A DNA stretch of 64,000 bases from an uncultured Eubacteriales bacterium (lineage in GTDB: Bacteria; Bacillota; Clostridia; Peptostreptococcales; Anaerovoracaceae), in contig CACYYD010000009.1 in NCBI GenBank assembly GCA_902778585.1, forward strand, positions 1-64,000, written 5' to 3'. The translations under genes were made by a program, and so were the position numbers. Below are positions 59,264-64,000 of the stretch, in pieces. Positions within the stretch are counted from its first letter, which is position 1; each line of letters starts with the position of its first letter. The notes under the pieces are model-generated. The model did not search any database, was not told where the DNA came from, and saw only the letters and a program-made list of their open reading frames with translations.

Positions 59264-62200
59264 CTACTCCGTCCTGAGAGCAACTACCGGATCCTTGCGC
59301 GCCGCCATTCCTGAAGGGATGAGTCCCGCGATGAATGTGAGGATCATGCTTATTATCACCAGTGCGACTCCTCCTGTTGCCGGCAGTATGGCCTTCAGCG
59401 CGGATATCTTGGTGAGACCTATCAGTATGTGGTTGATAGGTATCAGGAGCAGCAGGCTCGCGACTATTCCTATCACGCCCGCGCAGAGTCCGACGATGAT
59501 GGTCTCCGCGTTGAATATCCTCGCGATATCCTTCTTGGAGGCACCGATCGCGCGGAGTATTCCGATCTCCTTGGTCCTTTCAAGAACGGAGATGTATGTG
59601 ATGACTCCGATCATGATGGACGATACGATCAGCGATATCGCGACGAAAGCGATGAGCACGTAGCTGACCGCATTTGTGATGTTCTTTACCGATTTGATCA
59701 GAACGCCTGTGACGTCGGTGTAGCTGATGACCATGTCCTCGTCGCCGTTGTCCTGCATCTCCTGGTTGTAGTCATCGATGAACTTGAGGAAGTTTTCCTT
59801 CGACTCGAAGTCCTTGAGGTAGAACGACATCGAGTACGGTTTGTTGATGTCGGCGTAGCCGAGCTTCACCAGATTGGTATCGTAACTGGTCTCGGCGCCG
59901 CCCGATATGTATGCGGTGATGAGTCTTGTGATCTCATCTTCGTTCATCTTCATGGTGAAGGCGTCCGCGATGCCCGCCGGGTCGACATTGAACTGGCTTC
60001 CGACAGCCTGTGCAGCCTTGCCGAGTGCAGGTCCTACGACCTTCGCGTTCTGCATCATCTCTATGCCTTCGCCGTACTGGCTGATGCCCTTCTGGACATC
60101 GCTGTTGCCGGTGTACGGAGCTATGGTCTGCGAAAGGGCATTCCTGAGGATATCTTCCGGCTTAAGCTGCTGCTTGGCCATGTTTTCATCGATAGTGTCG
60201 TTCGTCTGTTTGATGAGCGCATTGATCTGAGGCACCAGCACTTCAGGAATGCTGTACTTGGATATCAGCTCGTCAGACAGACTGCCGTTTTTAAGAGCCG
60301 CGAAGAGGTCATCTTCAGATATGGCGATCCCCGCAGGAAGGCTCTTAGCCACGTCAGCTGCAGCCTGCTTCTGGGCGGCTTCCTTAGCTGCAGCTGCAGC
60401 CGCAGGGTCGGTCGCAGCAGCTATGGCATTCATTATTTCAGGTCCTGCCGCACTGAGCACCTTAGAATATCCTCCCAGAAGAGGATCGACTATCTGCTTG
60501 TGGCTGCCGCTGTCCTGATTCTCTGCCAGGGCTTTGGCTGTAAGAGTATCGTCGAATTTGAAATTAGCCGGATCCTTGATGTATTGGCTTACTATATAGT
60601 CGACCATTCCCTCGCAGCCCTTGCGGAGCGCCGCGTTCACATCGGATTCGATCTTCTCTGCGGAGTCGTTCTTTGAAAGATCTTTGATTTCATTGGTAGC
60701 GATCTTTTCAATCTCCTTCTGTATCGCATTCGGATCGATGTCGCCGCCGAGGGCTTTCTTGAGCTTGTTCTCGTCGATGCTTATCATGTCCTCAAAGCCG
60801 AGGCCTTCGCTGTTGTTGTTGCGGATGTCATCAAAGCTCTTGCCGCTGAATACGTCGATGTCCTTGTTGAGCAGCTGTATCTTCACGATATCAGATTCTG
60901 CCGCATACTCGATCATGTGGTTGGTAAGAGACGGAAGATATCCGACTCCGGAGCTCATGGCATTGGCGCCTGACTGCTCCTTCGCGCAGACTATGCCGCT
61001 TATGTGCAGCTTCTCGGATCTCCCGATGAGGTCCTCCATAAAGTCTTCGTCATCGGTCCTGTCCTCCCATACATCATAGGAGGAGTTGCGGGTGTATGTA
61101 TCGCATGCATGTACAAGCGCGAATTCCATTCCGATAAAGTCATCATAGGTCCACTCGAGACGGTCATTGGTGTTTTCGACCTTCTTGCCGTCCATGACAT
61201 CGTTGATCATGTCCTTCAGCTCCTGAGGATTGCGGAGTCCGAGCGTGTAGACGACATAGTCGTTCAGCTGGTCTTCGCTGTCGAGCACAAGGAGGAGCTC
61301 GTCATACTTCTCAGGCCATTTGCCGGCCAGTACCTTGTACTGTGACTTGAGAAGTTCTTCGTTGTCCATCATCTGAAAGAAGACGTCTGTGTTCATCATC
61401 GAGAAGCTGCTCTGCTGCAGACCGCTCATGTAGGACTGCATGATGGAGCCCGGGCTTACTCTCAGCGGACCGTACTCCATGTTTGTCGAATAGATGTTGA
61501 CCGAAAGACCGTATGAATACTGGTATGAGTTGAACCAGTCGCCGATCTCGCCCATGCTGGAGTCGAGGCGCTTCTTGAAGGCTGCCAGGTCATTCGAACC
61601 GACGCTGGCCAGCATGTCAGTCATGATCTGCTGCTCGTGCAGCTTATTGCCCGATGCCTCGCCCTCGGTATCGGACGCGTTGGTCATGAACGCCGTTATC
61701 ATCGAAGACATGTCGGCGGTCTCGGACATTATGGTAAAAGGATAGGACGAAAGGGTGTCCTCCTCGAGTTTGTCGATGTATGTCTGGAAGCCATTGGATA
61801 CGGAAAGTATCAGGGCTATTCCGATGATACCTATGCTGCCCGCGAAAGCCGTAAGAAGAGTACGGGCTTTTTTGGTCATAAGGTTGTTGAGCGACAGATG
61901 AAGAGCCGTCGCCATAGACATCGACCTGTTGCGGCGGCCAGAAGCGCGGCCGCTCTGCTTTGCGGCCTTTGCCGGCACCTCGCCGGCCTCCGAAGGCAAA
62001 GCAGAAGCCGCAGCACCGTCAGAGGCGGCTTTGGCGGCGGCTGCCGCCGCGGCCGCGGCCGCGCCCGGCACGGCGCCTCCGGCAGCAAGAGCATTCGCAG
62101 CGCTGCCTCCGGCGCCCGGTATATACGGGTCGCTGTCGCTTATAACCTGTCCGTCGGACAGTCTTACTATTCTTGTCGAATACGCCTCGGCGAGTTCCGG

Positions 62201-62797
62201 GTTATGAGTGACCATGATGACCAGCCTGGTCTTCGAGATCTCTTTAAGTATTCCCATAACCTGGTTGCTGGTCTCTGTATCAAGCGCGCCCGTAGGCTCG
62301 TCCGCGAGTATGATATCCGGGTCATTGATGAGCGCACGGGCTATCGCCACACGCTGCACCTGTCCGCCCGACATCTCCGCCGGCTTCTTGTTTATCTGGT
62401 CGCCCAGGCCAACGCGCTCCAGAGCCTCAGCCGCGCGGCGCTTTCTCTCTGCATGCGACACGCCGGAGAGAGTCAGCGCGAGCTCGACGTTCGAGAGCAC
62501 AGTCTGGTGGGATATCAGGTTGTAGCTCTGGAATACGAATCCGATCGTGTCGTTTCTGTACGCATCCCAGTCCGCGTCCTTATACTTCTTGGTGCTTATC
62601 CCGTTTATCAGAAGGTCGCCGTCTGTATACTGGTCAAGACCGCCCAGAATATTGAGCATGGTGGTCTTGCCGCAGCCCGATGGACCGAGCACGGAAACAA
62701 ACTCGCTCTCTCTGAAAGCGAGGTCTATCCCGCGCAGTGCCCGTACGGTCTCGGCGCCGGTTTTATATTCTTTTGTTATGCCTCTGAGTTCTAACAT
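59264..62797 (-). CDS. Fused ABC transporter, MacB/FtsX type, giant ectodomain
   Basis: 1177 residues from the ATG at 62797 (AGGGAG about ten bases upstream). Residues 1-225 are the ATPase with Walker A GPSGCGKTTML, signature MSGGQVQRVAIARAL and Walker B IILADEPTGALD. A low-complexity Ala-rich linker (about 230-290, AAAAAAAAAAKAASDG) leads to a basic stretch (SGRRNRS) and TM1 (about 308-330). A very large extracytoplasmic domain (about 335-1040) with Ala- and Gln-rich helices follows, then three C-terminal TMs with the FtsX motif ERTKEIGILRAIGASKKDI. Such type VII ABC proteins do mechanical work on substrates or envelope partners rather than classic transport. No TolC or membrane-fusion partner is adjacent. 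Confidence 0.9.
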   Translation of the reverse strand: MLELRGITKEYKTGAETVRALRGIDLAFRESEFVSVLGPSGCGKTTMLNILGGLDQYTDGDLLINGISTKKYKDADWDAYRNDTIGFVFQSYNLISHQTVLSNVELALTLSGVSHAERKRRAAEALERVGLGDQINKKPAEMSGGQVQRVAIARALINDPDIILADEPTGALDTETSNQVMGILKEISKTRLVIMVTHNPELAEAYSTRIVRLSDGQVISDSDPYIPGAGGSAANALAAGGAVPGAAAAAAAAAAKAASDGAAASALPSEAGEVPAKAAKQSGRASGRRNRSMSMATALHLSLNNLMTKKARTLLTAFAGSIGIIGIALILSVSNGFQTYIDKLEEDTLSSYPFTIMSETADMSSMITAFMTNASDTEGEASGNKLHEQQIMTDMLASVGSNDLAAFKKRLDSSMGEIGDWFNSYQYSYGLSVNIYSTNMEYGPLRVSPGSIMQSYMSGLQQSSFSMMNTDVFFQMMDNEELLKSQYKVLAGKWPEKYDELLLVLDSEDQLNDYVVYTLGLRNPQELKDMINDVMDGKKVENTNDRLEWTYDDFIGMEFALVHACDTYTRNSSYDVWEDRTDDEDFMEDLIGRSEKLHISGIVCAKEQSGANAMSSGVGYLPSLTNHMIEYAAESDIVKIQLLNKDIDVFSGKSFDDIRNNNSEGLGFEDMISIDENKLKKALGGDIDPNAIQKEIEKIATNEIKDLSKNDSAEKIESDVNAALRKGCEGMVDYIVSQYIKDPANFKFDDTLTAKALAENQDSGSHKQIVDPLLGGYSKVLSAAGPEIMNAIAAATDPAAAAAAKEAAQKQAAADVAKSLPAGIAISEDDLFAALKNGSLSDELISKYSIPEVLVPQINALIKQTNDTIDENMAKQQLKPEDILRNALSQTIAPYTGNSDVQKGISQYGEGIEMMQNAKVVGPALGKAAQAVGSQFNVDPAGIADAFTMKMNEDEITRLITAYISGGAETSYDTNLVKLGYADINKPYSMSFYLKDFESKENFLKFIDDYNQEMQDNGDEDMVISYTDVTGVLIKSVKNITNAVSYVLIAFVAISLIVSSIMIGVITYISVLERTKEIGILRAIGASKKDIARIFNAETIIVGLCAGVIGIVASLLLLIPINHILIGLTKISALKAILPATGGVALVIISMILTFIAGLIPSGMAARKDPVVALRTE

Positions 62798-62917
62798 CAG
62801 TCTCAATCTCCCTGTTTGCATAATTGCAATTCCAATCGTAAATTTTACCTTATTGCAACACATTCCTACAATAATTATTGTTCATAAAACACATATTGTT
62901 CAGAAACCTTAACTCCA

Positions 62918-63252
62918 CCTGATCGAAGCCCGCCGTGAGTCACCGAATTAGGCCAAAAGGCAAGGCGGGCAGACGAAATGGCCTAATCGAAGCCCGCCGT
63001 GAGTCACCGAATTAGGCCAAAAGGCGAGGCGGGCAGACGAAATGGCCTAATCGAAGCCCGCCGTGAGTCGACAAATTAGGCCAAAGGCGAGGCGGGCAGA
63101 CGAAATGGCCTAATCAAAGCCCGCCGTGAGTCACCGAATTAGGCCAAAAGTCGAGACGGGCAGACGAAATGGCCTAATCGAAGCCCGCCGTGAGTTGACA
63201 AATTAGGCCAAAGGCGAGGCGGGCAGACGAAATGGCCTGATCGAAGCCCGCC
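62918..63252. repeat. Tandem array of five 63-64 bp units built from alternating inverted repeats
   Basis: Units start at 62918, 62982, 63046, 63109, 63173 and a partial sixth at 63236. Each consists of CCTAAT..., a 23-base spacer with GCCCGCC, ATTAGGCCA, a second spacer with GGCGGGC, and TGGCCTAAT shared with the next unit. So GGCCTAAT and ATTAGGCC alternate about every 32 bases, and GCCCGCC/GGCGGGC alternate in phase with them. Copies differ at few positions. The first unit begins CCTGAT; the terminal half-unit has CTGAT with a matching ATCAG (63272-63276), a compensated change. It lies in the divergent intergenic region. Confidence 0.92.
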
Positions 63253-63300
63253 ACAGCCGTGGCTCGCCTGAAATCAGTGGTCGCAATAAGTATAAAAGAG

Positions 63301-63309
63301 TGATACAAT
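63301..63309 (+). promoter_or_regulatory. Extended -10 promoter of acyl-CoA synthetase
   Basis: TG-A-TACAAT directly after the repeat array, 81 bases before the start codon; TCGCAA 17 bases upstream is a poor -35. Confidence 0.5.
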
Positions 63310-63389: not shown

Positions 63390-64000
63390 ATGTCAGATAA
63401 GTGGACGATAAATGAAAACGGAAAAATAGTTTTTCCTATCCCGGAGAAGGTAAAGACTCCTTGGTTCGCAAGCAGGGGCGACCTTCCTGCAACTCTTGAA
63501 TACACAAACGGCACCATGTATGAAAAAGTTGAGGCCGTGGCAAAGAAGTATCCTAACAACATTGCCCTCGACTTCATGGGAAAGCACATAACATACAGGC
63601 ACATGATCGACCAGATCAACACTTGTGCCAAGTCGCTCCGCATCCTCGGAGTAAGGGAGAACGACAAGGTCACCATCGCGATGCCTAACTGCCCTCAGGC
63701 CATCTACATGCTTTACGCTGTAAACCTGGTAGGCGCCATTGCAAATATGGTGCATCCTCTTTCGGCCGAGAAGGAGATCGAGAACTACCTCAACATGTCC
63801 GAGTCGATCATGGTCGTCACACTCGACCAGTTCTATCACAAGATCGAAGCGATCCGTAAGAACACAAAGGTACAGAACGTGATCATCGCCCGCATCAGGG
63901 ACGAGCTCACAAGACCTATCAGAGTGGGATACATGCTGACCGAGGGACGCAAGATCGCGAAGATCCCTGAAGATGCGCCGGTATTCCAGTGGCCTGACTT
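63390..64000 (+). CDS. AMP-binding acyl-CoA synthetase, 5' part only
   Basis: 203 codons are visible before the window ends, with no stop. The start at 63390 follows GGAGAAAAAGAAGAA. The protein opens MSDKWTINENGKIVFPIPEK, then the adenylate-forming N-terminal fold: KYPNNIALDFMGKHITYRHM, SLRILGVRENDKVTIAMPNC, AIYMLYAVNLVGAIANMVHP. These are the substrate-entry helices of fatty-acyl or other acyl-CoA ligases (FadD-like). The P-loop and signature motifs lie beyond the window, so the acyl specificity is unknown. Confidence 0.9.
   Translation, partial: MSDKWTINENGKIVFPIPEKVKTPWFASRGDLPATLEYTNGTMYEKVEAVAKKYPNNIALDFMGKHITYRHMIDQINTCAKSLRILGVRENDKVTIAMPNCPQAIYMLYAVNLVGAIANMVHPLSAEKEIENYLNMSESIMVVTLDQFYHKIEAIRKNTKVQNVIIARIRDELTRPIRVGYMLTEGRKIAKIPEDAPVFQWPD

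Follow-up and report, generated by a model that had tools for sequence, protein, structure and literature searches.

A tandem array between divergent genes

The window, which is the whole stretch of 64,000 nucleotides that was analyzed, carries a tandem array near its right end, at positions 62918 to 63252, with 5.3 copies of a 64/63-bp unit and 91% matches. A first-pass annotation had described a 64-bp tandem array between two divergent genes and within about 30 bases of a promoter, and each of these points was borne out. The array is flanked by ABC transporter and AMP-binding (acyl-CoA synthetase) genes, and 28 bp separate its end from the −35-like hexamer of the acyl-CoA synthetase (acs) promoter, which is conserved in sister species, where its counterpart reads TCGCAT-17-TAAAAT. 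The extent given previously, 62918 to 63276, was too long on the right; the last bases, 63253 to 63276, are ordinary flank outside the array. The features of the locus are as follows.

59264–62797, minus strand: divergent gene for an ABC transporter ATPase/FtsX-like permease, with MLELRG taken as its start
62916–62923, minus strand: degenerate left-end half-site, CACCTGAT
62918–63252, no strand assigned: array (family F1, below) of five ATTAGGCC-N24/25-GGCCTAAT modules with 23-bp links, and a degenerate half-site plus link at the left end
62947–62987, no strand assigned: module 1, inner spacer 25
63011–63051, no strand assigned: module 2, inner spacer 25
63075–63114, no strand assigned: module 3, inner spacer 24
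63138–63178, no strand assigned: module 4, inner spacer 25; GACGGGC in place of GGCGGGC, partner unchanged
63202–63241, no strand assigned: module 5, inner spacer 24; right arm GGCCTGAT
63281–63309, plus strand: likely acs promoter, TCGCAA, 17 bp, extended −10 TGATACAAT (by eye and conservation)
63390–63998, plus strand: AMP-binding (acyl-CoA synthetase-like) gene, extending beyond the window, with an open frame of 611 codons in the genome

Within the window array, GGCCTAAT and ATTAGGCC alternate in steps of 31 to 33 bases, and GCCCGCC and GGCGGGC occupy the spacers, in line with the alternation of about 32 bases reported earlier. The units are 92 to 100% identical to their own consensus unit and have clearly been amplified. 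Their spacers are near-identical, not unique, and the earlier statement that the array is not a CRISPR holds. An Rfam search of the window matched a group II intron domain V at positions 32 to 97, with no other match.

A half-site and its spacing recur at eight loci

The genome that contains the window (G000) is a draft of 46 contigs and is 96% complete. A search of this genome with the repeat unit gave weak matches at C6 that likewise recur every 63 bp, and inverted pairs of the form ATTAGG..CCTAAT gave 21 exact matches per strand, versus 2 for the reversed control. When two mismatches were allowed, with the inner spacing fixed at 24 bases, the only additions were further members of these loci and two stray matches. 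At least eight arrays of the family, here called F1, were found at unrelated intergenic loci, with 30 modules in all, copies within one locus being nonindependent events. The search for further arrays had been proposed in the first pass as a check, and eight loci with a common site and spacing identify a repeat family. The F1 loci are listed below.

C4:50818, one module
C6:70388–70617
C9, the window array
C11:44068–44296 (C11a)
C11:54473–54701 (C11b)
C17:15744–16027, with a shortened fifth module in front
C26:11048–11277
C30:4692–4920

Four regular modules are present at six of the eight loci, and a single module at one. Most F1 arrays begin and finish with whole inverted pairs; the window array is a clear exception. 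The conserved element is an 8-bp half-site, ATTAGGNC or GNCCTAAT, in alternating orientation; with all half-sites oriented alike it reads A-ATTAGGNC-N-WWW, the core being nearly invariant and the A and WWW flanks weak. The basic unit is the 40-bp inverted pair ATTAGGNC-N24-GNCCTAAT, which is repeated about four times. Its inner spacer is 24 bases long in 24 of 30 modules and 25 in the remaining 6, and the links between pairs are 23 bp in 22 of 22 cases. The sites are spaced at 31.5 bp on average, equal to three turns at 10.5 bp, which places them all on the same helical face. The resultant of site positions was 0.96 at 10.5 bp per turn, versus about 0.2 at 10 or 11, in a calculation that set all inner spacers to 24 and so idealized the six 25-base spacers.

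The sequence between the sites is not kept. Inner-spacer identity between loci was 0.288, versus 0.286 in shuffles (p 0.41), and link identity was 0.307, barely higher than the shuffled value of 0.285 (p 0.02), both orientations having been tried in each case. Adjacent modules in C11b and C30 differ at 17 to 88% of inner-spacer bases, versus 0 to 14% of site bases. Outside the arrays, half-sites seem less common than in relatives, but by this measure they rank only 4 of 90 same-composition words.

Genes neighboring the F1 arrays include ABC/acs, nifH-like/nifD-like, cysS/thyA, ATP synthase C, MatE, and others, and no regulon is evident among the genes that flank the eight loci. The C6 and C17 arrays lie between codirectional genes and not at promoters. 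The flanks of the eight loci have nothing explanatory in common, except for a short repeat, CCGGCCAGCGYGGCAACGCRGGG, in the left flanks of the C11:44068 and C30:4692 arrays.

Distribution among relatives

No F1 array was found in 46 congeners or in the other 349 family genomes searched, and the stricter pair form had no match in the congeners. Among the 350 family genomes, only G000 has more than one pair match; two of the others have one pair each, which is chance level, and the 21 exact pairs per strand in G000 are far above it. Viral contigs gave no match to the F1 motif. A three-site pattern, searched in a collection of about 85,000 species from which records very near G000 may be left out, matched one other species, an Omnitrophota MAG; its repeat, on two contigs, is homogeneous and has longer arms, and we judged it unrelated and coincidental. 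The literature searches gave no matching description, whether of tandem arrays in Clostridia or of alternating phased sites.

Two loci were compared with those of relatives. The cysS-thyA gap is 429 bp with the array in G000, versus 3 to 16 bp in many sister species, where stop and start often overlap; eight sister species carry an unrelated structured element in this gap. The ABC-acs gap is 592 bp, versus 82 to 235 bp in most relatives that keep this gene order, although several have gaps of 271 to 859 bp; none of these gaps contains an F1 array, whereas the promoter of acs has been conserved. Since the gaps are much shorter in most sisters at the two loci, the F1 arrays look like lineage-specific gains.

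Other repeat families and structured elements

Three more families, F2 to F4, came to light when about half of G000 was sampled, and their counts are minima. F2 consists of GNNCATAC-NNN-GTATGNNC every 54 bp, with 15 exact palindromes at five loci and spacers that differ between loci. F3 is GTTGACGCAA-N21-TTGCGTCAAC every 75 bp (L139:4530-4803, on C24), and F4, present at three loci, is GACCCCA-GTTTA-TGGGTGC with a period of 54 bp. F2 and F4 adjoin on C24 and C43.

F2: C2:172643 (single palindrome); C19:1321–1541 (L134); C20:21419 (L175); C24:98–471 (L139); C43:6579 (L174)
F4: C14:31366–31630 (L187); C24:474–684 (L139); C43:6338–6570 (L174)
Structured element, cysS-thyA gaps: L235, L239, L244, L245, L247, L249, L250, L259
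Structured element, G000: C6:38655–38777; C13:16518–16630

An intron 3′ end similar to that of the window, on C24 (L139:1-95), seems by eye to run straight into the F2 array. The structured element is interspersed and about 120 to 200 nt long. Its loops are conserved, and its outer stems seem by eye to be compensated between species; it had no Rfam match. Inverted-repeat tandem arrays with other motifs are present in the sister species G038 (L205:7219-7490 and L209:9431-9613) and G008 (L229:15037-15180); the G008 unit resembles pieces within the structured element of G034 and G042, with arms changing together. No such arrays were seen in 400 kb of G031. A CRISPR-like array with a repeat containing CCCCACGTGCGTGGGG was observed at L125:7304-7454 (C7:7304 in G000).

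Alternative explanations

Two fold registers are possible along the window array, as had been noted in the first pass, and the array might be transcribed and fold into hairpins with these alternative registers; we consider such a structured RNA improbable. Its fold is better than that of shuffles (z −4.9), but inverted repeats alone would give such scores. The C6 and C17 arrays, given their codirectional neighbors, are probably transcribed; Rfam has no match at the window array. A paired change in the arms of the end unit had been claimed to look like selection for pairing. The half-sites with CTGAT (63238) and ATCAG (63273) are 39 bp apart, however, not 31, and their match extends over just 5 bases. 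CCTGAT is also present at the left end of the array (62918), facing an unchanged ATTAGG, and the fourth unit (near 63150) has GACGGGC for GGCGGGC with no corresponding change of GCCCGCC. The claim fails locally, and across loci the covariation is weak and mixed, the seventh base being unpaired in 10 of 23 modules in the inner register and in 6 of 22 links. The inner-register covariation score is at the shuffle level. The link-register score was matched by only 3 of 500 shuffles, a signal that comes from three cells and that related copies can produce without structure. In C11b, three consecutive half-sites share the change TTAGG to TTGGG, which, with the link covariation, could hint at pairing or copying. 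The arms are near-invariant instead of covarying, and hairpins need no spacing exact to one base. Because the evidence from arm pairing is weak and mixed, and the base at position seven often lacks a partner, recognition as DNA is a better fit than a stem in RNA.

A neutral minisatellite, in which a stretch prone to palindromes was recently duplicated by slippage, agrees with the amplified window units, but slippage cannot explain how eight loci whose spacers are unrelated came to share one 8-mer and its spacing; we give this explanation hardly any credence and reject it for the F1 family, so that it holds only for copy number inside a locus. A mobile repeat resembling REPINs or NIMEs is the main, if rather doubtful, alternative, in which the half-sites would be ends recognized by an enzyme, and the modules would have been inserted in gaps and tandemly duplicated before their spacers decayed. 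Multilocus, intergenic inverted-pair modules in ordered tandem clusters are also a feature of REPINs (PMC3116915), and the long cysS-thyA gap agrees with insertion, as does the ABC-acs gap, though several relatives have long gaps there. The F4 spacers look alike, by eye, at two loci; spacers are common to no two F1 loci. REPINs are mostly single (PMC3116915), whereas single modules are rare in F1 (1 of 8 loci), and the F1 half-site, at 8 bp, contains no hairpin. A profile search of the 96%-complete genome found no Y1_Tnp (PF01797) gene, the E. coli control being positive. Three options had originally been left open for the array: an RNA, a protein-binding array, and a BIME-like repeat. Protein binding fits best; a strict RAYT-driven BIME/REPIN is weakened, and mobility by another enzyme stays in contention.

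The array as a proposed phased set of protein sites

The analysis establishes the half-site and how it is spaced, shows that it recurs at eight loci whose spacers are unrelated, and finds it absent from the searched relatives. Site and spacing are kept while spacers change, which points to a reader, and the 8-base site itself is probably recognized by something in the cell. The simplest choice is a protein on double-stranded DNA, given a site that hardly varies, a base left free on both arms, and a phase in agreement with B-DNA. The window array may be a set of DNA sites for a putative sequence-specific, cooperative DNA-binding protein, a reading that we consider about evenly poised between right and wrong. 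Half-sites alternate every 31.5 bp on average and all face the same side of the helix; a protein acting as a dimer or larger assembly would occupy successive pairs cooperatively, and the bound protein would cover or wrap the intergenic stretch. We infer the protein nature of the reader, its action on double-stranded DNA, its cooperativity, and any effect on neighboring genes or on chromosome organization.

The binding-array reading is weakened by the neighboring genes, which form no regulon, and by the arrays that are not at promoters (C6 and C17). The change repeated in C11b and the link-register covariation also count against it. Even spacing is also weaker as evidence, since tandem duplication within loci and a common origin could partly explain it. 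A more speculative proposal, which we think unlikely, is a lineage-specific DNA-coating or chromosome-organizing system, in which a cooperative protein would act from about eight dispersed nucleation arrays, one of several motif-diverse families of which sister species have other versions, suggesting fast coevolution of protein and site. A site and spacing kept amid changed spacers usually mean a trans-acting reader, and finding that reader would reveal a new nucleoprotein system or a non-RAYT repeat mobilizer. Several array families in one genus offer a chance to watch site specificity evolve.

Comparison with known systems

F1 arrays share a constant element and regular spacing with CRISPRs, a reading that we rejected because the sites are 8 bp and alternating, and the spacers are duplicated within arrays. 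The likeness to REPINs and BIMEs is closer, as these are intergenic and multicopy, and in them a short conserved sequence occurs as inverted pairs at a fixed distance, in ordered tandem clusters (PMC3116915). F1 likewise has two conserved inverted sequences at a fixed distance. Unlike REPINs and BIMEs, it has an 8-bp half-site without a hairpin and is nearly always arrayed; dispersed copies are not alike over the whole unit, the inner spacers of the eight loci being at the shuffle level, and the Y1 (RAYT) transposase family, PF01797, was not found in G000, with controls positive.

The neisserial dRS3, ATTCCC-N8-GGGAAT, is 20 bp long and ends in inverted repeats of 6 bp (PMC3898611). NIME/dRS3 repeats resemble F1 in that short inverted-repeat sites, separated by other sequence, form arrays between genes (PMC3898611). 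The dRS3 arms are 8 bp apart, however, and the 8-bp arms of F1 are separated by 24 bp within pairs and 23 between them, in far fewer copies and with a strict period. Clusters of the Lrp/AsnC type, which are a precedent for the F1 spacing, have semipalindromic sites at target promoters, unlike the asymmetric, alternating F1 half-sites at unrelated loci, and the likeness is in site geometry alone: multiple sites on one helical face with centers two or three turns apart (PMC2995911; PMC10201364), as seen for F1 at 31.5 bp with a resultant of 0.96.
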